Origin: Methanothrix sp. | GTDB lineage: Archaea > Halobacteriota > Methanosarcinia > Methanotrichales > Methanotrichaceae | Assembly (NCBI GenBank): GCA_026394565.1 | Contig: JAPKYA010000094.1 | Span: forward strand, 1-38,387 | Direction: 5' to 3' | DNA: 38,387 nt | In this document: one piece after another, positions 13,725 to 21,570 of the stretch | How the letters are laid out: every line of letters begins with the position of its first letter | How positions within the stretch are numbered: position 1 is the first letter of the stretch | The notes under the pieces: model-generated | Databases searched by the model: none | The model's input: only the letters and a program-made list of their open reading frames with translations | Told to the model about the DNA's origin: nothing | Position numbers and translations under genes: made by a program

Positions 13725-15221
13725 ATGTCTATTCATTGGGCTGACGTCATCGCCGAGAAGCTCGAGAAGAGCGGCCCTCACACCATTGCCACGGGCATAA
13801 CACCCTCCGGGCCGGTCCATATCGGAAACATGCGCGAGGTCATGACGGCAGAGGCCGTCTACCGTGCCCTGCTTGACCGGGGTGTAGAGGCAAAGCTCAT
13901 CTACATCGCCGACACCTACGATCGCCTGCGAAGGCTCTACCCCTTCCTGCCGGAGAGCTTCACCGAGCACATCGGTAAGCCGCTCTCGGAAATACCCTGC
14001 CCCCTGGGATGCTGCGCCAGCTACGCCGACCATTTTCTTAATCCCTTCTTGAAAAGCATGGAGAGGCTGGGCATCAAGCCCCAGGTCTACCGCGCCGATG
14101 TGCTCTACAAGGAAGGCAAGTACAATGAGGCCATCAAGACCGCGCTGCGGCGCAAAGACGACATCGCCCGCATCTTAAAAGAGGTCTCAGGCCGCGATGT
14201 TCCGGCGGGATGGAGCCCCTTTGATGCCATCTGCCCCACATGCGGCCGCACCAACACCACCCACGTCACGGGCTTTGATCTGGAAGGCGAGACGGTGGAC
14301 TACGAATGCTCCTGCGGCTCGAAGGGCACCGTCTCCATGAGCGGCGGAGGGAAGCTGGTCTGGCGGGTGGACTGGCCGGCCCGCTGGCCCATTTTTAATG
14401 TTACTGTGGAGCCCTTTGGCAAGGACCACGCCACATCCGGCGGCTCCTACGACACCGGCAAGCGCATCAGCGAAGAGATCTACGGCTACCCTGCTCCCTT
14501 CCCCATGGTCTACGAGTGGATCCACCTCAAAGGCGTGGGCGCCATGCACAGCTCCACGGGAATTGTGGTCACCATTCAGGAGATGCTGGACGTGGTGCCC
14601 CCCGAGGTCCTGCGCTACCTGATCATCAGGAACAAGCCAGAGAAGCACATCGAGTTTGATCCAGGACTGCCGCTGCTTTCCCTGGTGGACGAGTACGACC
14701 AGCGAAAGGGCGATGAGAGGGCCATTGAGCTATCCAATATCAGTAAGAGCGGGCCCTTCGAGATTCCCTTCCGCCACATGGTCACGGCAGTGCAGATCGC
14801 TCGCGGTGACGAGGACGGTCTCTTCGTAGCCCTGAAAAGATCCGGCTACGATGTCATCACCAGGCGCGAAGAGATCTTAGGCCGGGCAAGAAATGTGCAG
14901 ACCTGGCTGGACAAATATGCGCCGGCCTACGTAAAGTTCCAGGTGCAAGAGACGCTTCCTGTCGCGGTCAAGAATCTCACGCCCCAGGAAAGACAGGGCC
15001 TGGGCATCTTGGCCGAGCAGGTAGAGGAGAAAACGGCAGCCGACATTCACGAACTGGTCTATGCCGTGGCCAAGGAGCAGGGCCTCGACTCCAAGAAGTT
15101 CTTCCAGGCCATCTACTTGGCATTCCTGGGCGACCGGCAGGGCCCCAAGGTGGGCTGGTTCTTGGCCAGTCTGGAGAGAGGCTTTGTGAAAGCCAGGCTG
15201 AAGGAAGCGGCTACTGCTTAG
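13725..15221 (+). CDS. lysS: Lysyl-tRNA synthetase, class I
   Basis: This enzyme charges tRNA-Lys and is the archaeal-type class I enzyme, unrelated to bacterial and eukaryotic class II. The product has 498 residues. The HIGH-type motif is HIGN at 32-35 within SGPVHIGNMR, and the KMSKS-type signature is MHSSTG at 274-279. A Cys cluster (CPTCG, then CSCG) is inserted at about 168-206. The C-terminal half is the helical anticodon-binding domain. The ATG follows TTGAGGCT. A deoxyribosyltransferase-like gene and a phosphoesterase follow on the same strand. Confidence 0.96.
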   Translation: MSIHWADVIAEKLEKSGPHTIATGITPSGPVHIGNMREVMTAEAVYRALLDRGVEAKLIYIADTYDRLRRLYPFLPESFTEHIGKPLSEIPCPLGCCASYADHFLNPFLKSMERLGIKPQVYRADVLYKEGKYNEAIKTALRRKDDIARILKEVSGRDVPAGWSPFDAICPTCGRTNTTHVTGFDLEGETVDYECSCGSKGTVSMSGGGKLVWRVDWPARWPIFNVTVEPFGKDHATSGGSYDTGKRISEEIYGYPAPFPMVYEWIHLKGVGAMHSSTGIVVTIQEMLDVVPPEVLRYLIIRNKPEKHIEFDPGLPLLSLVDEYDQRKGDERAIELSNISKSGPFEIPFRHMVTAVQIARGDEDGLFVALKRSGYDVITRREEILGRARNVQTWLDKYAPAYVKFQVQETLPVAVKNLTPQERQGLGILAEQVEEKTAADIHELVYAVAKEQGLDSKKFFQAIYLAFLGDRQGPKVGWFLASLERGFVKARLKEAATA

Positions 15222-15230
15222 ATATGAAAT

Positions 15231-15292
15231 TTCTTTGCGTCTTTGTGGTTGGGTGCAACTTACGGTCACCACAAAGGCACAAAGACACGAAG
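15231..15292. repeat. Imperfect inverted repeat of CTTTGTG-type units
   Basis: CTTTGCGTCTTTGTGGT (15233-15249) is answered by ACCACAAAGGCACAAAGACACGAAG (15268-15292 in total), with ACCACAAAG exactly complementary. It lies between lysS and the next gene. The CTTTGTG/CACAAAG composition resembles dispersed intergenic repeats seen in many prokaryotes; a related TCTGTG/TCCGTG stretch lies at 25395-25432. Confidence 0.5.
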
Positions 15293-15309
15293 GCTTCGAG
15301 GCAGATGTC

Positions 15310-15669
15310 ATGATGCACAAGATCTACCTCTCCGGCCCGCTCTTCTCGCAAGGCGAGATCGCCTGGGGCGAGCGCGTCAAGTCCTTCCTAAAAGATCGGC
15401 TGGAAAATGTTGAGATCATCTGGCCCCATGAGATCGTTCCCTGCCTTGCATTGCCGGCGCAGATCTTCCAGGCTAATTTGCAGGCGTTAAGCGAATGCGA
15501 TGTCATGGTGGCCATGCTGGACGGACCTCAGGTGGAAGACGGCACCGCCTGGGAGATAGGCTACTTCTTCATGCAGGGCAAAAAAATCCTGGGGCTAAGA
15601 ACTGACTTTCGCCGCGCCGGAGAGACGGACAATTCGCGCGTCAACCTCATGAAGAGGCTATTGGATTGA
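15310..15669 (+). CDS. Nucleoside 2-deoxyribosyltransferase-like protein
   Basis: The 119-residue product has the family's IYLSGPLF opening, an internal ECDVMVAMLDGPQVEDGTAWEIG with the expected catalytic Glu in AWEIG, and a GKKILGLRTDFRR tail. The fold breaks or exchanges N-glycosidic bonds of deoxynucleosides; archaeal members may act in nucleotide salvage or cleaning, so the substrate is not certain. ATG at 15310 has GAGG 8 nt upstream; the frame is open further back through the inverted repeat but without family similarity. It overlaps the next gene by four bases. Confidence 0.8.
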   Translation: MMHKIYLSGPLFSQGEIAWGERVKSFLKDRLENVEIIWPHEIVPCLALPAQIFQANLQALSECDVMVAMLDGPQVEDGTAWEIGYFFMQGKKILGLRTDFRRAGETDNSRVNLMKRLLD

Positions 15670-16433
15670 TCTCGCCCGTCTTTGATGCGCCCCTTCTCCT
15701 GGTGGAGGGAGAAGAACGCGTCCTGGTGGCTGCCGATCTTCACCTGGGCCTGGAGCATGAGCTGTGGCTGGGAGGTGTTTCTATTCCCAGCCAGACCGAG
15801 AAAATTTTAGTGCGGCTGCTGGGCTTTCTGGCCGAGATAAAACCGGACAGGCTCTTGCTCCTAGGGGACATAAAGCACAATGTTCCCAGGACGAGCTGGC
15901 AGGAGAAGAGGGAGATCCCCGAATTCCTGCGCCGGCTCTCTGCCCAGGTTTTGGTGGAGATCGTGCCGGGAAATCACGACAGCAACCTTGCCGACATGGC
16001 CCCCCTGGGTACGCGGGTGCGCCCGTCCTCCGGGTTTGTGCTCGACGGCGTGGGCTATTTCCACGGCCACACCTGGCCGGATGAAAAGGTCATGCACGCG
16101 GACAGCCTGGTGGCGGGGCACCTGCATCCGGCGATAAGGCTCAAGGACCCCCTGGGCCACTCTCCTTCCCGCCCCGTTTGGGCAAAAGCGCTGCTGATGA
16201 GTCGCGTGGTGCAAGAGCATTACGGCTTTGCCAGTGGAAGTGAGATCATCATTGCCCCCGCCTTCAACATTCTTTGCGGCGGACTGCCTCTCAATGAGCC
16301 GGTCGAGGAAATGCGCGGGCCTCTCTTAGCCATGGCCGATTGGGATGGGGCGCGCATCTATCTGCTGGACGGAACCGACCTAGGCACCCTGGCGGAGATA
16401 AAAGCGGCCCAAAGAAAGCCGGCAGAGAAGTAA
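15666..16433 (+). CDS. Metallophosphoesterase (calcineurin-like)
   Basis: The 255-residue product has all the metal-binding motifs of the superfamily: DLHLG (about 24-28), LLGDIKH (about 64-70), GNHDSN (about 99-104), a GHTW segment and GHLHP (about 146-150). It belongs to the archaeal/bacterial group of ICC-like phosphoesterases often annotated as DEAD/DEAH-helicase-associated; the substrate is unknown. The start is TTG at 15666, overlapping the TGA of the previous gene, which implies coupling. Its 3' end sequence is repeated in front of pyrE at about 18940-18955. Confidence 0.85.
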   Translation: MISPVFDAPLLLVEGEERVLVAADLHLGLEHELWLGGVSIPSQTEKILVRLLGFLAEIKPDRLLLLGDIKHNVPRTSWQEKREIPEFLRRLSAQVLVEIVPGNHDSNLADMAPLGTRVRPSSGFVLDGVGYFHGHTWPDEKVMHADSLVAGHLHPAIRLKDPLGHSPSRPVWAKALLMSRVVQEHYGFASGSEIIIAPAFNILCGGLPLNEPVEEMRGPLLAMADWDGARIYLLDGTDLGTLAEIKAAQRKPAEK

Positions 16434-16475
16434 GAATTATTACCGTGCGATTATTACAGGAAAGGGGATAACGAA

Positions 16476-16613
16476 GTGAATGATAAAGAAAAGCCGATGC
16501 GTGGGATGACCCGGCCGGAGACTTCCGCTGCAAGAGGACTCAGCTTGGGCGCGTTATGGAACGCGAATTTAAGCTTCAAAGCATTATTCTCGCACGATGA
16601 TTTGGGTATATAA
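16476..16613 (+). pseudogene. pyrE: Decayed pyrE copy (internal deletions and frameshift)
   Basis: The 46-codon frame starts GTG with VNDKEKP (intact pyrE: MNDKER). It then matches pyrE residues 55-70 (MTRPETSAARGLSLGA against MIRPEVSAVGGLTLGA) and finally the last residues (ALFSHDDLGI against ALFTRDDLDI, after a one-base shift). At least two internal blocks are missing, leaving 138 of 543 bases. The upstream 50 bases also match those before intact pyrE, including the TTATTACC segment and the GGGGATAA-GAAGTGAATGATAAAGA start region. It therefore marks an old duplication of the mpe-pyrE junction. Confidence 0.85.
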
Positions 16614-17279
16614 ATGTTTATTTCAATAATAATCCCCATAAAAAATGAACCTGCAATTCAAGAGCTAATCGATGAAATAAATGATTCCATAAAACAAAAA
16701 CATGAAATAATCGTAGTCGACAAGAGCATAGTCATACCTGAAGTTGTGGGCGCGAGAGTCATAATCCAGGAATCGGATGGTTTGGGTAATGCATTTTTAG
16801 AAGGATTATCCCATGCCCGTGGGGATATAGTCGTCCTCATGGATGGTGATGGCTCTCACCGGCCCCAGGACCTTCTTAATATGCTGAATAATATCGGTGA
16901 ATACGACATAGTATTGGGCTCCAAGCTGGTCCGAGGCGGAAAAAGCTGCGATGCCTTGGGAAGAAAGATTGTCACGATTGCCTTTGCTTGGATAACGAGG
17001 CTAATACTAGGGAAAGATATAAAAGATCCCATGACCGGCATGATGGCCACAAAACGAGATGTATTGAGCAATATGAAACTTAAGCCCAGAGGATTTAAGA
17101 TAGCAATCGAGGTCGTATATAAATCGAAGGCGAAAACAGTTGAAGTTCCCATTTCATTTTGCCGGAGGAAAGCGGGTTATACAAAAGCCGGCTTCAACAT
17201 GAATGGTGTTAGGGAAATATGCAGGATATTCATGCTGTTGTTGGAACTCAAATGGGGAAGGATGCGCGGCTACTGGTGA
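16614..17279 (+). CDS. Family 2 glycosyltransferase (dolichol-phosphate mannose synthase type)
   Basis: The 221-residue product has the GT2 opening ISIIIPIKNE, the nucleotide-sugar site DGDGSH (about 78-83; DxD type) and ARGDIVVLMDGDGSHRPQDL, typical of polyprenyl-phosphate mannose/glucose synthases. No C-terminal membrane pair is present, so the following GtrA protein may provide membrane attachment or flipping. The ATG follows the TAA of the pyrE remnant directly. The base composition is more AT-rich than the genes before it, in line with transfer of the module. Confidence 0.88.
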   Translation: MFISIIIPIKNEPAIQELIDEINDSIKQKHEIIVVDKSIVIPEVVGARVIIQESDGLGNAFLEGLSHARGDIVVLMDGDGSHRPQDLLNMLNNIGEYDIVLGSKLVRGGKSCDALGRKIVTIAFAWITRLILGKDIKDPMTGMMATKRDVLSNMKLKPRGFKIAIEVVYKSKAKTVEVPISFCRRKAGYTKAGFNMNGVREICRIFMLLLELKWGRMRGYW

Positions 17280-17292
17280 TGGGGCGGGGCCA

Positions 17293-17718
17293 ATGAAGAT
17301 CATCAAAGCCGCAATAGGCACTGATTGGCAAAATTTATTAATGTTCGCCTCTGTCGGAGCGAGTGGAGCAATTATTAATTTGCTTACAATTTGGATTTTG
17401 ACAAGTCACGAGCATCTGTATTACATGTCATCTGCAATGATCGCAATCGAAATTAGCATACTATGGAACTTCATTTTAAACACAAGAATAACATTTGAGT
17501 ACAAGTTCCTAACCGTTGGCCATCTCTTGGATTCGGTGATGAGATACCATCTAGCATCCCTTCTGGGAATATGCGTAAATTTATCTACGCTTTTTGTTTT
17601 AACTGAATTTATAAAAATAAATTATGTTATATCTGAAGCCGTCGCTATTCTGCTCGCGTTTGGATTCAACTATACGCTAAGCAAAAAATATGTATGGCGT
17701 GTTCCTTCTCAGTCCTAA
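17293..17718 (+). CDS. GtrA-family membrane protein
   Basis: The 141-residue product has four hydrophobic segments and the GtrA-like features FASVGASGAIINL at the N-terminus, WNFILNTRITF in the middle and FGFNYTLSKKYVW at the end. GtrA proteins are thought to move polyprenyl-linked sugars across the membrane or aid their transfer. ATG at 17293 gives a normal family length; the frame continues upstream inside the glycosyltransferase but without membrane features. It is 13 nt after the glycosyltransferase, so the two form a transfer/flip pair. Confidence 0.85.
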   Translation: MKIIKAAIGTDWQNLLMFASVGASGAIINLLTIWILTSHEHLYYMSSAMIAIEISILWNFILNTRITFEYKFLTVGHLLDSVMRYHLASLLGICVNLSTLFVLTEFIKINYVISEAVAILLAFGFNYTLSKKYVWRVPSQS

Positions 17719-17735
17719 AGGCCATCTCAGCCTCG

Positions 17736-18884
17736 TCAGATAATTACCGGGAAGCCATTGCTCCAGAATACCATTAAACATCCCTGCAATAAGGCAAGAA
17801 ATATGACAAGCACCTGATCCGTATTGGATTCTTTTGTCATTTGAGCCAATAATATAAAAAGAGGAAAAATCACCAGCGCAAATCTGGGCATAGAATACAA
17901 TCCCGACAACAGCGGAACTATGATTGAATACATGCCGAAGATCCAATAGGAGAATCTAATTTTTTTATAAAATAATATCATCATTGATAAAGAAATTATT
18001 GTGAATAATCCCGGAAAGATATTGGCATTTCCTGAGCCGATCAATCCTTCATATAATGTCCTAAGAGGATTGGCCAGTGATCTACCCCATGCCGATTGTG
18101 TGTGCATAAAAGCCAGAAAATCCCCAGTCAAGTAATAATTATAGATCATGAATAGCAAAAGACCAAATGGTATCATAAGCAGGTAAAAAACATCCCTGCT
18201 AATTGGTTTTGATTTCAGATATTCATATAGTGCTGGCACTATAATTAAGACGCCTAGTGATCTCGTGAGCGACAAGAAAAAACCCAATAACCCGACCAAA
18301 AGCCAGTTTCCCTTCCGGGCATAATAAAAGCAAGCCAGGGCCAGGGCGAGAAAAAGGGATTCAGTGAATACGCCTGATAAGATAAAAGCCGTAGGAAACA
18401 AAAACATGTATTTGACCGACCTGATGGCGGTATCACTGCTTTCGTCCAGTTTCACTAGATCATATAAAAATATACATGAGATTAATAAACAGATATTTGA
18501 TATAATAATTCCTGTGATGTATATATTATTAATATCGAAACTGAAAAGTCTCATAAGCAGTGGGTAAAGCGGAAAGAATGCGTAATTTGCCTGGTTATTT
18601 AAAAACGCAGCAGTCGTTGCCGAGTAACCATTCGCTGCAATCCCCAAATACCAACCTGTATCCCAAACGCCCCAAATGTCCAACCACAGTTTATCAGAAT
18701 AAATCCATACATATTCTTTGCCGTGATAGGGTTCTAAGAAGATACGGGATTGCACTCCAATAAATGTCAAAATAATTCTTGTGCTCAAAAATAATAAAAA
18801 AATATATTTCAGTTCCTGAATGGCAATTTGTGGTATAATCTTCTTTAATTTACATTCTATTACTCTTGCATATTGATCTAACAT
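17736..18884 (-). CDS. PIG-V-like polytopic mannosyltransferase
   Basis: The 382-residue product has about nine or ten hydrophobic segments. A first extracytoplasmic loop holds WDTGWYLGIAANGY (about 74-87), which resembles the WD-GWY active-site region of PIG-V/GT-C enzymes using lipid-phosphate mannose. FFPLYPLLMR follows. It converges on the GtrA gene and is equally AT-rich. A plausible role is to use the lipid-linked sugar made by the GT2 enzyme to glycosylate a surface lipid or protein. The acceptor is unknown. Confidence 0.75.
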   Translation of the reverse strand: MLDQYARVIECKLKKIIPQIAIQELKYIFLLFLSTRIILTFIGVQSRIFLEPYHGKEYVWIYSDKLWLDIWGVWDTGWYLGIAANGYSATTAAFLNNQANYAFFPLYPLLMRLFSFDINNIYITGIIISNICLLISCIFLYDLVKLDESSDTAIRSVKYMFLFPTAFILSGVFTESLFLALALACFYYARKGNWLLVGLLGFFLSLTRSLGVLIIVPALYEYLKSKPISRDVFYLLMIPFGLLLFMIYNYYLTGDFLAFMHTQSAWGRSLANPLRTLYEGLIGSGNANIFPGLFTIISLSMMILFYKKIRFSYWIFGMYSIIVPLLSGLYSMPRFALVIFPLFILLAQMTKESNTDQVLVIFLALLQGCLMVFWSNGFPVII

Positions 18885-18939
18885 TTACACTACGGTTAGA
18901 TATCAAATATTTAATTCTATTGCGAGGCACAGTGATATC

Positions 18940-18996
18940 ATCAGAGCAGTAAGGATTATTACCATAGCTATTCTTACAAGATAGGGGGATAAAGAA
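18940..18996 (+). repeat. Second copy of the mpe-3'-end/pyrE upstream sequence
   Basis: The stretch CAGAGCAGTAAGGATTATTACC onward to the pyrE GTG matches 16423-16475 at roughly 80% by eye, including what would be the last codons and stop of the phosphoesterase gene. This shows that pyrE originally followed the phosphoesterase directly. Confidence 0.75.
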
Positions 18997-19539
18997 GTGA
19001 ATGATAAAGAGAGGCTATTAGAATTGCTCAAGGACAAGTCCCTTGAGGTAAGGCCGGTCATCCTGTCCTCCGGCAAAACCAGCGATTATTACATGGACTG
19101 CAAGCGCGTTACCTTAAGTCCGGAAGGGTCCTATCTCGCGGGCAAGCTGCTGCTGGAGATGATCCGGCCGGAGGTATCCGCCGTAGGTGGGCTCACCCTG
19201 GGTGCAGACCCCATTGTATCATCCATTTCCGTTCTAAGCCATCTGCAGAAAAGAGGGCTGTCCGGCCTGATTGTGCGAAAAGAGCCTAAGAAGCACGGCA
19301 CCATGAGCTATGTGGAGGGACCGGCTCTGCAAAAGGGAGCGATGGTCGCGGTGGTGGAAGACGTGGTCACCTCGGGCGCATCCCTTCTCAGAGCCATCGA
19401 TCGCATTGCCGCGGCAGGTTATCGGCCTGTGCAGGCTCTGACCATATTAGACCGCCAGGAAGGCGGAAGAGAAGCCATCGAAGAGCGGGGATTTGTGCTG
19501 CAAGCGCTCTTTACTCGCGACGATTTGGATATAAAATAA
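18997..19539 (+). CDS. pyrE: Orotate phosphoribosyltransferase
   Basis: PyrE converts orotate and PRPP to orotidine monophosphate in pyrimidine synthesis. The 180-residue product has the PRPP-binding loop VVVEDVVTSGASLLRAI (about 112-128), the GKTSDYYMDCKRV segment and KEPKKHG of the flexible loop. The start is GTG at 18997 with GGGGGAT upstream; an overlapping ATG at 19001 is out of frame. This is the intact partner of the pseudogene at 16476. No other pyrimidine genes are adjacent. Confidence 0.95.
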   Translation: MNDKERLLELLKDKSLEVRPVILSSGKTSDYYMDCKRVTLSPEGSYLAGKLLLEMIRPEVSAVGGLTLGADPIVSSISVLSHLQKRGLSGLIVRKEPKKHGTMSYVEGPALQKGAMVAVVEDVVTSGASLLRAIDRIAAAGYRPVQALTILDRQEGGREAIEERGFVLQALFTRDDLDIK

Positions 19540-19541
19540 AA

Positions 19542-20189
19542 TTATTGCCCCTCAGGGGGCCGTTCTCCCAAGCCGGAGACATGGTTAAAGCCTTCCTGCC
19601 GCATATCTCCAGGAAATCCGCTTCCATGCTGTGTCCCGTTGTTGTCGGGTTGCCTGTTATCAGGCGGCGTCTCGCGCGGCGATACTCCGTCGGGCAGCAC
19701 ACCGCCCGGTGGCACGGCGAAGGGGTCCGTCCCCATTGGATTTGTGCCGTTCGGCCCTACATTATCCGGTGTTGTTGCTCCCGGCGTTGGCTGCGCCTGG
19801 GGCACAGCAGAAGGTGTAGCCGTAAAAGGCGCTTCCAGTCGAAGATTGCGCCAGGTTCCGTCTTCCGCGTAAGATATCTCAGAAACGATCCAATAATTCC
19901 CGCTCTGCTGCGCCGTGAGGGGGTAGCTGATCTGCTGCGTGACCCCGGGGTATAGCTGTGTGCTCTGCCCTCCCCCGTTCGCGACAATACCTGGAGGAAG
20001 ACTGGGCGCGACCACGGCTTGTGTGGAGTTCAGGCCATTGTAGGTCAGAGATACTGTTACAGTTACCATCTGTCCAACCTCCGCAGTGGGTATCAGATTC
20101 TGGTAGGCCGTAAGCTCTGCCGCCGCCGTACCCATTAATAGCCCCACCCCAAGGAGCAGAAGAATGTGCACCAATCCCAAATGCTTCAT
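19542..20189 (-). CDS. Secreted protein with a Pro/Gly-rich tail
   Basis: The 215-residue product has a signal peptide (HILLLLGVGLLMGTAAA), then an Ig-like beta domain of about 100 residues (VGQMVTVTVSLTYNGL, YPGVTQQISYPL), then a long disordered tail rich in Pro, Gly, Asn and Thr (about 115-215). The tail has no sorting signal. ATG at 20189 is chosen because TTTAAA lies about 28 nt before it, suggesting a leaderless mRNA; an ATG at 20234 would put 15 charged residues before the signal peptide. The family is unknown. It is convergent with pyrE. Confidence 0.65.
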   Translation of the reverse strand: MKHLGLVHILLLLGVGLLMGTAAAELTAYQNLIPTAEVGQMVTVTVSLTYNGLNSTQAVVAPSLPPGIVANGGGQSTQLYPGVTQQISYPLTAQQSGNYWIVSEISYAEDGTWRNLRLEAPFTATPSAVPQAQPTPGATTPDNVGPNGTNPMGTDPFAVPPGGVLPDGVSPRETPPDNRQPDNNGTQHGSGFPGDMRQEGFNHVSGLGERPPEGQ

Positions 20190-20349
20190 CGGATCTCTAT
20201 TGTTCTGCCTGCGAGATTTAAAGATACCTGTCATACGAGATTGATATGAGATCTATTCGATGCCTTGATACCTATTTCCAATATTTTGCAGACATCAGGA
20301 CATTTTCCATACATAAAATACTTATTCGGTTTGGAGATATGATCCTCTG

Positions 20350-21570
20350 ATGGACGTCTCTTTCTCTGCCTGGCGGCATTCGCGAGAAGAGAGCTTGCAG
20401 CTCAAAGGAGATAGCTTCTCCTTTCTCTTCGATAGGCGCTACACCAATCGGCTCAACCGAATGAGCCGTGTTTTCTTTGAAGCCTATGTCGTGGCCACTA
20501 AAGAGCTGGCCGCGCAGGAGGACCGCTTCCCCAGCCTTAGCGAGATAGACGCCAAGATGGAAAGCGGGGCAGTTTATGCCTTCAAGGATCGTTTGACGAA
20601 GAATACAGAGTTCTTCGAAGAGGTCAAGATTTCCGGCGTCTCCTACCTGGTCCCGCGCGCACTCAAGTTCGTGGATGTTAGCGGTACGTATACCGATTTG
20701 ATCTTGAACTTCGAAGAGGGCAGCGTGGTGCTGCCCACGCGAAGGAAGACCACCTCCCTCCCGGACAGCCCTATGCCGGTAGAAGTGGAAGAGCAAGAGC
20801 CAAGAGCTTCTCTCGTGGATGAGACCGCAAATAAAGCGCCCGCCTTTGCCGAAGATACGGCGGGGCTGAAGGACGCAGCAGCAAAACCGCAGTCGTATCC
20901 ACTGCACACTCCTGAGGCCTTCGAGGAGATCTCCCCGGCAACGGAGACGGTAGAGGCGGCATCTCCAAGCGAGCCTGCCGAAAAGATAATAGTAACTGCC
21001 ACATCCCCAGCAAGAGAGCCGTACAAGCCCCCATTGACCAAGAAGAAGATGGCAATGCCGCCAAAAACAGTCACCTTGCTTGGCGCGGCCATCTTGCTGG
21101 CTCTTCTTGCCGTTGTATCCATCTATGGCCCAACGCCAGTACAGGCACCAGTACAGCCAACGTCCCTGGTTTCGTATTCCGTATACCTTTCCAATTCCAG
21201 CAACGAAAGCTATCTTGGCCTGGACATCACCAACCCCCAGGCAATGGCCAATGATATGGAGATGGCTCTGCCCCCGGATATCGACCGGAGCATCAGTGCC
21301 CGAGGCGGAATTGTGACCATCTCACATGGAGAGAATACACTGGTGCGAATGAACTCCACCGGAGACGCCAGCGTGAAGATATATCTGCAGGGCAACTGGA
21401 CAACAATTCCTGTCGGCCTCAGCTTTTATGCGCCGCAAGGCTTCGATACCAACCTGCTGGTTCACGGACTAGCATCGACTGTCACGCGCAAGAATGAGAC
21501 CTCGGTCTTGATGTTCAACCTGACGGGAGATGGGGTAAGCTTTGAGCAGAGCTACACCCGGAAAAACTAG
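20350..21570 (+). CDS. Membrane-anchored protein of unknown function
   Basis: The protein has 406 residues. The first 115 or so form a soluble, charged domain (SFSFLFDRRYTNRLNRMSRV, YLVPRALKFVDV) that I do not recognise. Residues about 120-230 are a low-complexity linker rich in Pro, Glu and Ala. A single membrane helix lies at about 238-258 (TVTLLGAAILLALLAVVSIY), followed by an external domain of about 145 residues with several N-glycosylation sites (NSSNES, NSTG, NWT, NET). The layout suggests an intracellular-to-surface connector. It overlaps or directly precedes taw2 on the same strand. Confidence 0.6.
   Translation: MDVSFSAWRHSREESLQLKGDSFSFLFDRRYTNRLNRMSRVFFEAYVVATKELAAQEDRFPSLSEIDAKMESGAVYAFKDRLTKNTEFFEEVKISGVSYLVPRALKFVDVSGTYTDLILNFEEGSVVLPTRRKTTSLPDSPMPVEVEEQEPRASLVDETANKAPAFAEDTAGLKDAAAKPQSYPLHTPEAFEEISPATETVEAASPSEPAEKIIVTATSPAREPYKPPLTKKKMAMPPKTVTLLGAAILLALLAVVSIYGPTPVQAPVQPTSLVSYSVYLSNSSNESYLGLDITNPQAMANDMEMALPPDIDRSISARGGIVTISHGENTLVRMNSTGDASVKIYLQGNWTTIPVGLSFYAPQGFDTNLLVHGLASTVTRKNETSVLMFNLTGDGVSFEQSYTRKN

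Follow-up and report, generated by a model that had tools for sequence, protein, structure and literature searches.

A glycosylation cassette flanked by a decayed pyrE and an intact one in a Methanothrix genome

How did three glycosylation genes come to lie between two copies of a pyrimidine gene in a methanogen? The question is raised by a 38,387-nucleotide (nt) stretch of DNA from Methanothrix sp. (contig JAPKYA010000094.1 of assembly GCA_026394565.1), analysed here and called the window. It constitutes contig C62 of a 2.29 Mb genome that is held in 124 contigs and is 79% complete. In the window, a relic of pyrE, the gene for orotate phosphoribosyltransferase, follows a phosphoesterase gene (mpe), and an intact pyrE lies beyond a module of three genes (GT2, GtrA and MT). 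A sequence-only reading of the same DNA had proposed that the mpe-pyrE junction was duplicated, that the module lay between the copies while one pyrE decayed, and that the 5′ end of pyrE acted as an integration or recombination point without a transposase. We compared the window with 25 other genomes of the genus, 11 others of the family and 23 of the class outside the family. Four features of the locus are observed directly: a direct repeat and its extent, an uninterrupted site in relatives, an unlike base composition of the module, and a pattern of neutral decay in one pyrE. The best explanation, which we offer tentatively and as falling just short of probable, is the homologous single-crossover integration of DNA that carried a pyrE unit together with the cassette, after which the redundant copy decayed.

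Long direct repeats of host sequence are found at both ends of the insert. When the segment 18900-19600 is used as a DNA query against its own genome, it finds one further place, where 16423-16489 corresponds to 18942-19010 (query positions 43-111) at 86% identity (E = 1.3e-13). The left copy of this repeat (16423-16475, forward strand) consists of the end of mpe and a promoter-like region of pyrE, and the right copy (18942-18996, forward strand) of the corresponding promoter-like region ahead of the intact gene; the recurrence of some 50 bases at 16423-16475, which the sequence-only reading had noticed, is confirmed. The pairwise comparison of the two pyrE places that was proposed there as a check gives a significant alignment: the local score is 84, and none of 300 first-order Markov shuffles exceeds 33. 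Taken by itself, the decayed part scores 62.0 (null mean 7.9, maximum 36.1; 300 shuffles). On its left the repeat reaches about 8 coding nt ahead of the mpe stop, and on its right it reaches the pyrE stop codon, with GT2 beginning at the very next base; because of these two limits, we take the repeated unit to be the whole of pyrE with its promoter-like region, some 600 bp. Homology left of 18942 into the mpe coding sequence is not significant, its best score being equalled by 260 to 341 of 500 shuffles. Duplication is accordingly well supported, but the junction as first drawn needs amendment: the vestigial 3′ end of mpe amounts to about 8 coding nt and the stop, the shared stretch ahead of pyrE is mainly a conserved promoter-like element, and the repeat extends across the entire pyrE unit.

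The two copies of the gene differ sharply in condition. Intact pyrE (18997-19539, forward strand, 180 amino acids) is, judged by its match to TIGR00336 (125.2 bits, above the curated cut-off of 106.8), a full-length orotate phosphoribosyltransferase domain; the Pfam Pribosyltran score of 25.1 bits lies just below its cut-off of 26.3. The relic runs on the forward strand from a GTG at 16476 to a TAA at 16613 that abuts the next ATG, and is an open remnant of 45 amino acids (46 codons with the stop, as first described). It is built of three blocks, all in frame with the intact gene: the first 14 nt of the gene, start codon included and all identical, 63 nt equivalent to residues 49-70, and 35 nt equivalent to about residues 169-180, with a doubtful alignment of the few bases between blocks two and three. 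The start and end had been placed rightly from the first, but the middle block covers residues 49-70 rather than 55-70. By their coordinates, the blocks are separated by net gaps of 132 nt (44 codons) and 270 nt (90 codons). Searched by itself, the relic matches no family in Pfam or NCBIfam. Changes peculiar to the relic affect 5/34, 9/36 and 3/23 sites at codon positions 1, 2 and 3, without a third-position excess, whereas over the same blocks third positions account for most differences between intact pyrE and its relatives (9 of 11 with genome G021, 7 of 11 with G020, 12 of 16 with G017 and 6 of 9 with G007). Given this contrast, the relic looks to be decaying neutrally; the view that one pyrE copy has decayed is supported. 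Selection on the relic reading frame was considered and is not needed: the third-position pattern is absent, and an open frame is unsurprising when 42% of neutral simulations (substitution-only) keep it open.

Related genomes preserve the arrangement without the module. In the genus, mpe and pyrE share a contig in 20 of the 25 genomes, 50-149 nt apart in 19 of them and 694 nt apart in G022, and no module gene lies in any of these 20 intervals; the target is thus single and uninterrupted wherever it can be read. Five genomes were not readable, since G004, G006 and G009 gave neither an mpe nor a pyrE ortholog match, a contig begins inside pyrE in G024, and one leaves pyrE early in G025. Elsewhere in the family, 9 of the 11 genomes have both genes on one contig, 43-161 nt apart and without the module (they are on separate contigs in G029 and G032). 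The adjacency was not seen in the 23 class genomes outside the family. Because readable relatives have mpe and pyrE adjoining without the module (37-43% GC), we regard the module as an insertion; adjacency of this kind had been named as something to look for, and it is found at both levels. The longer gap of G022 (locus L084, 2701-3396) holds a small membrane-protein-like open reading frame (ORF) and gives no significant match to the proteins of the module (best E 0.45); there, by eye, an alanyl-tRNA synthetase gene seems to take the place of hyp, the conserved hypothetical gene that follows pyrE in the window.

Both sides of the insert look native as judged from gene order and protein similarity. 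The left flank, mpe (15666-16433, forward strand), is intact and encodes an SbcD-related archaeal calcineurin-like phosphoesterase (Pfam Metallophos 3.1e-6, above cut-off; TIGR00024 1e-24, below its cut-off). The right flank, hyp (19542-20234, reverse strand), adjoins pyrE in 18 of the 25 genus genomes. The proteins nearest to intact pyrE, at 91%, are those of G007, G017, G020 and G021, and mpe is nearest to those same four genomes. The mpe tree has a five-genome group with G017, G020, G021 and G007 (an open fork), and the intact pyrE tree has a wider unresolved group of ten that includes the mpe-group genomes; the two trees agree as far as they are resolved.

The module itself is of a different character, and its description as an AT-rich set of three glycosylation genes is supported. 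GT2 (16614-17279, forward strand) encodes a family 2 glycosyltransferase of the dolichyl-phosphate hexose transferase or AglJ-like kind (Pfam Glycos_transf_2 1e-16; TIGR04182 and NF041391 below cut-off), GtrA (17293-17718, forward strand) a GtrA/DPMS transmembrane protein (Pfam GtrA_DPMS_TM 8e-23), and MT (17736-18884, reverse strand, convergent with the other two) a polytopic GT-C-like glycosyltransferase resembling PMT_2 and PIG-V. Their GC contents are 43%, 37% and 37%, with 39-46% at third codon positions (GC3), vs 61% GC and 73% GC3 in mpe. The window's own MT matches no Pfam family, and among 11 aligned members of its family 7 match PMT_2 and 4 match PIG-V. A profile of MT finds no sequence match among solved structures. 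Its predicted model (pLDDT, the predicted local distance difference test, 81.8) has among its first 30 Foldseek matches oligosaccharyltransferases, ALG9, ALG12, ArnT and PimE (best E 1.7e-4, TMq 0.34-0.57), a moderate match that points to a polytopic GT-C fold. None of the three main ORFs encodes an integrase or a transposase, as would mark a site-specific integrative element; the scan left small overlapping frames aside, and to that extent the suggested lack of a transposase is borne out.

The relatives of these genes are scattered. Among 60 genomes searched, the nearest relatives of GT2 are in genomes of the same family; relatives of 65-67% stand at other places in G003, G019 and G026, and a GtrA of 51-53% adjoins in G003 and G019. 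Only one relative of MT was found in the genus, a fragment in G005 (loci L083/L100, contig C234) that covers residues 1-108 at 67% and has an in-frame stop in one match; it lies at a different place and is perhaps a remnant of another cassette. Further relatives of MT, at 29-57%, occur in 12 other loci (one over 46 residues only), with Methanosarcina, Altiarchaeales, Uhrbacteria and Poribacteria among the sources. Three Methanosarcina loci (L091, L092 and L095) have the same three kinds of protein side by side. In the window, unlike in those runs, MT is inverted and convergent, and GT2 and GtrA are only about 30-42% identical to the Methanosarcina proteins, compared with 51-65% to the G003 and G019 copies. 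Since GT2 and GtrA are closer to the G003 and G019 copies, the cassette appears composite, and on these comparisons it looks like a composite newcomer of patchy distribution.

A Campbell-type integration, in which circular DNA enters a chromosome by a single homologous crossover, duplicates the target on both sides of the insert. The history we prefer would begin with the order ndt-mpe-pyrE-hyp and with incoming foreign DNA in which a surface-glycosylation cassette (GT2, GtrA and the GT-C-like enzyme) lay beside a pyrE transcription unit that came from this lineage or one close to it. One crossover within pyrE, of the Campbell type, would then have produced, from left to right and in one step, mpe-promoter-pyrE, the cassette and promoter-pyrE-hyp; we infer both the single crossover and the circular donor. 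The right pyrE, still with a promoter region of its own and with hyp, its native neighbour on that side, would have stayed intact, while the redundant left pyrE would have decayed neutrally through two net in-frame losses, retaining its promoter-like element. As in Campbell integration, the target is duplicated on both sides here and one copy is redundant and free to decay; unlike it, no donor has been found here, and the three module genes are not genes for replication or transfer. Several points weigh against this history. The donor molecule did not appear in plasmids and viruses, which were searched with MT and not with the other module genes: the MT relatives in the 7 plasmid records listed are remote, at 25-32% identity, and one viral scan with MT gave no relative. 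The species is represented by a single strain. Moreover, the relic resembles G021 almost as much as it resembles the intact copy, which leaves room for an old duplication or for an intact gene derived from another strain. Doubtful short blocks included, aligned identity is 149/190 between relic and intact copy, 144/189 between relic and G021, and 168/190 between intact copy and G017. Support from the trees is weak: an unconstrained tree groups the relic with the intact copy, and with the near relatives held together this placement again comes first, by a margin of only 1.8-2.1 log units over four alternatives (approximately unbiased test, p 0.22-0.37). The placement of the relic as sister to the intact copy is a weak lean drawn from these alignments.

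Other histories account for parts of the same evidence. The pyrE unit, from promoter to stop (about 600 bp), may have been duplicated in tandem and the cassette may have entered later between the copies, harmlessly as the gene was redundant. This two-step course is unlikely, yet it keeps a real claim: the repeat amounts to one transcription unit, and the best tree, though weakly supported, sets the relic beside the intact copy. It requires, however, that the later insertion struck the relic stop codon or its immediate vicinity, since the GT2 start directly follows the relic TAA, unless a later deletion joined them. Doubt is greater over a capture in which linear DNA from a sister strain, carrying cassette-promoter-pyrE, recombined by homology at pyrE on one side and was end-joined on the other, so that the relic would be the old native gene and the intact copy the newcomer. 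Where the four near relatives agree, the relic alone departs from them at 24 sites and the intact copy alone at 3, a new state is common to both at 3 (one of these in a doubtful block), and 1 site differs in both; the six telling sites, then, divide evenly, the relic going with the intact copy's new state at 3 and keeping the relatives' state at 3. Such a split, the near-equal distance of the relic from the intact copy and from G021, and tree tests that do not reject it all suit a xenologous origin, which must nonetheless face an intact pyrE nearest to the same four genomes as native mpe and a best tree in which relic and intact copy are sisters. Least probable of all is an assembly artefact that joined unrelated pieces. 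A genome in so many contigs and so incomplete invites the suspicion, but two false joins would be required, the repeat copies are probably too different to confuse an assembler easily, and GT2 has its nearest relatives within the family.

The remaining question is whether pyrE, and its 5′ end in particular, attracts insertions. That the pyrE 5′ end is a specific integration point for mobile cassettes seems to us very improbable. The break is located at pyrE, and two contigs of G011 end there, C77 (L046) inside pyrE after mpe and C68 (L019) at the pyrE start before hyp, the copies being 95% identical over 367 nt; this split may reflect strain variation or alleles, or possibly a second split pyrE locus. 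Against it stand the repeat, which covers the whole gene, the 20 readable genus genomes whose mpe-pyrE gap lacks the cassette, the GT2 copies of G003, G019 and G026, which have no comparable flanking direct repeat (G026 is cut by a contig end), and a break within pyrE in G018 that is a 127-nt exact overlap and likely an assembly effect. Spanning the whole pyrE unit, the repeat gives the 5′ end no special standing, and a crossover at any point along about 600 bp would fit. Nor did a second clear case emerge, and this part of the sequence-only reading is not supported. Counting G016, which has NN in pyrE, up to five genus genomes are broken in the gene (G011, G016, G018, G024 and G025) vs 1.52 expected for gene size (Poisson tail 0.02). 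A recurrent hotspot was considered and set aside as not demonstrated, several of these breaks looking like assembly effects. In G025, the pyrE stretch of contig C425 (L088) breaks off after about codon 21, beyond which the sequence is GC-rich and unrelated; the contig looks chimeric. Improbable too, if a shade less so, is a reading in which the relic element and the open 45-codon frame would form a transcription and translation leader that puts the sugar genes under pyrimidine-gene control, with pyrE units a recurrent landing and wiring place in Methanothrix and G011 a possible second case.

The promoter-like region owes its name to a 15-nt element (roughly GYAAGRRTTATTACC) present in both repeat copies (16430-16444 and 18949-18963), which starts 46 nt ahead of the relic's start codon and 48 nt ahead of that of the intact gene, and here overlaps the mpe stop. 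It scores at least 13/15 in 15 of the 21 relatives scanned and 10 or 11 in G010, G011, G012, G014, G022 and G023, while 41 of 4600 base shuffles reach 12; the perfect scores of the window's two copies arise by construction because the pattern was taken from them. From its place and conservation we infer a promoter role, and the element is likely a promoter or operator. In its own genome the exact element occurs only at the two pyrE copies, and its use as a genome-wide site was rejected (23 two-mismatch matches vs 48 for a reversed control). By eye it is nearly palindromic. The left copy sits 169 nt upstream of GT2-GtrA, and these genes may use the spare pyrE promoter-like element. A sigma-70-type promoter scan of 16300-19700, with a model unsuited to archaea, gave 8 sites vs 8.4 in shuffles.

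Archaeal precedents place the event among familiar ones. Genomic island GI 3 of Haloquadratum, at a tRNA-His gene and with a phage integrase, is described as having an intact target gene on one side and a partial one on the other (PMC3119063). The Methanothrix insert similarly lies between an intact and a broken copy of its target; unlike GI 3 as so described, it has no integrase that we found, and its target is a protein gene duplicated whole with its promoter-like region. The same account describes deletion-coupled insertions in Haloquadratum, in which host DNA is lost at the site (PMC3119063). Foreign genes, some of them for the surface, are likewise set there into a conserved gene order, whereas here a host gene is duplicated (PMC3119063). 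In the literature searched, among the matches listed and by their titles and abstract openings, no pyrE duplication in Methanothrix was found. We regard the event as a single, rather ordinary horizontal insertion with a duplicated target, and it leaves the general picture unchanged. Its value is that of a readable fossil, in which a methanogen would have gained surface-sugar genes through homology to a housekeeping gene, apparently without a cassette-borne integrase. One possible consequence is the position of GT2-GtrA downstream of a spare pyrE promoter, and the conserved promoter-like element that precedes pyrE in Methanothrix is open to testing.

Beyond these genes, no RNA family reaches its gathering score in window positions 14000-21000. 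A short inverted repeat, with 18-nt arms that are 89% complementary, lies at 15232-15285, in the gap that separates the class I lysyl-tRNA synthetase gene from the one that follows.

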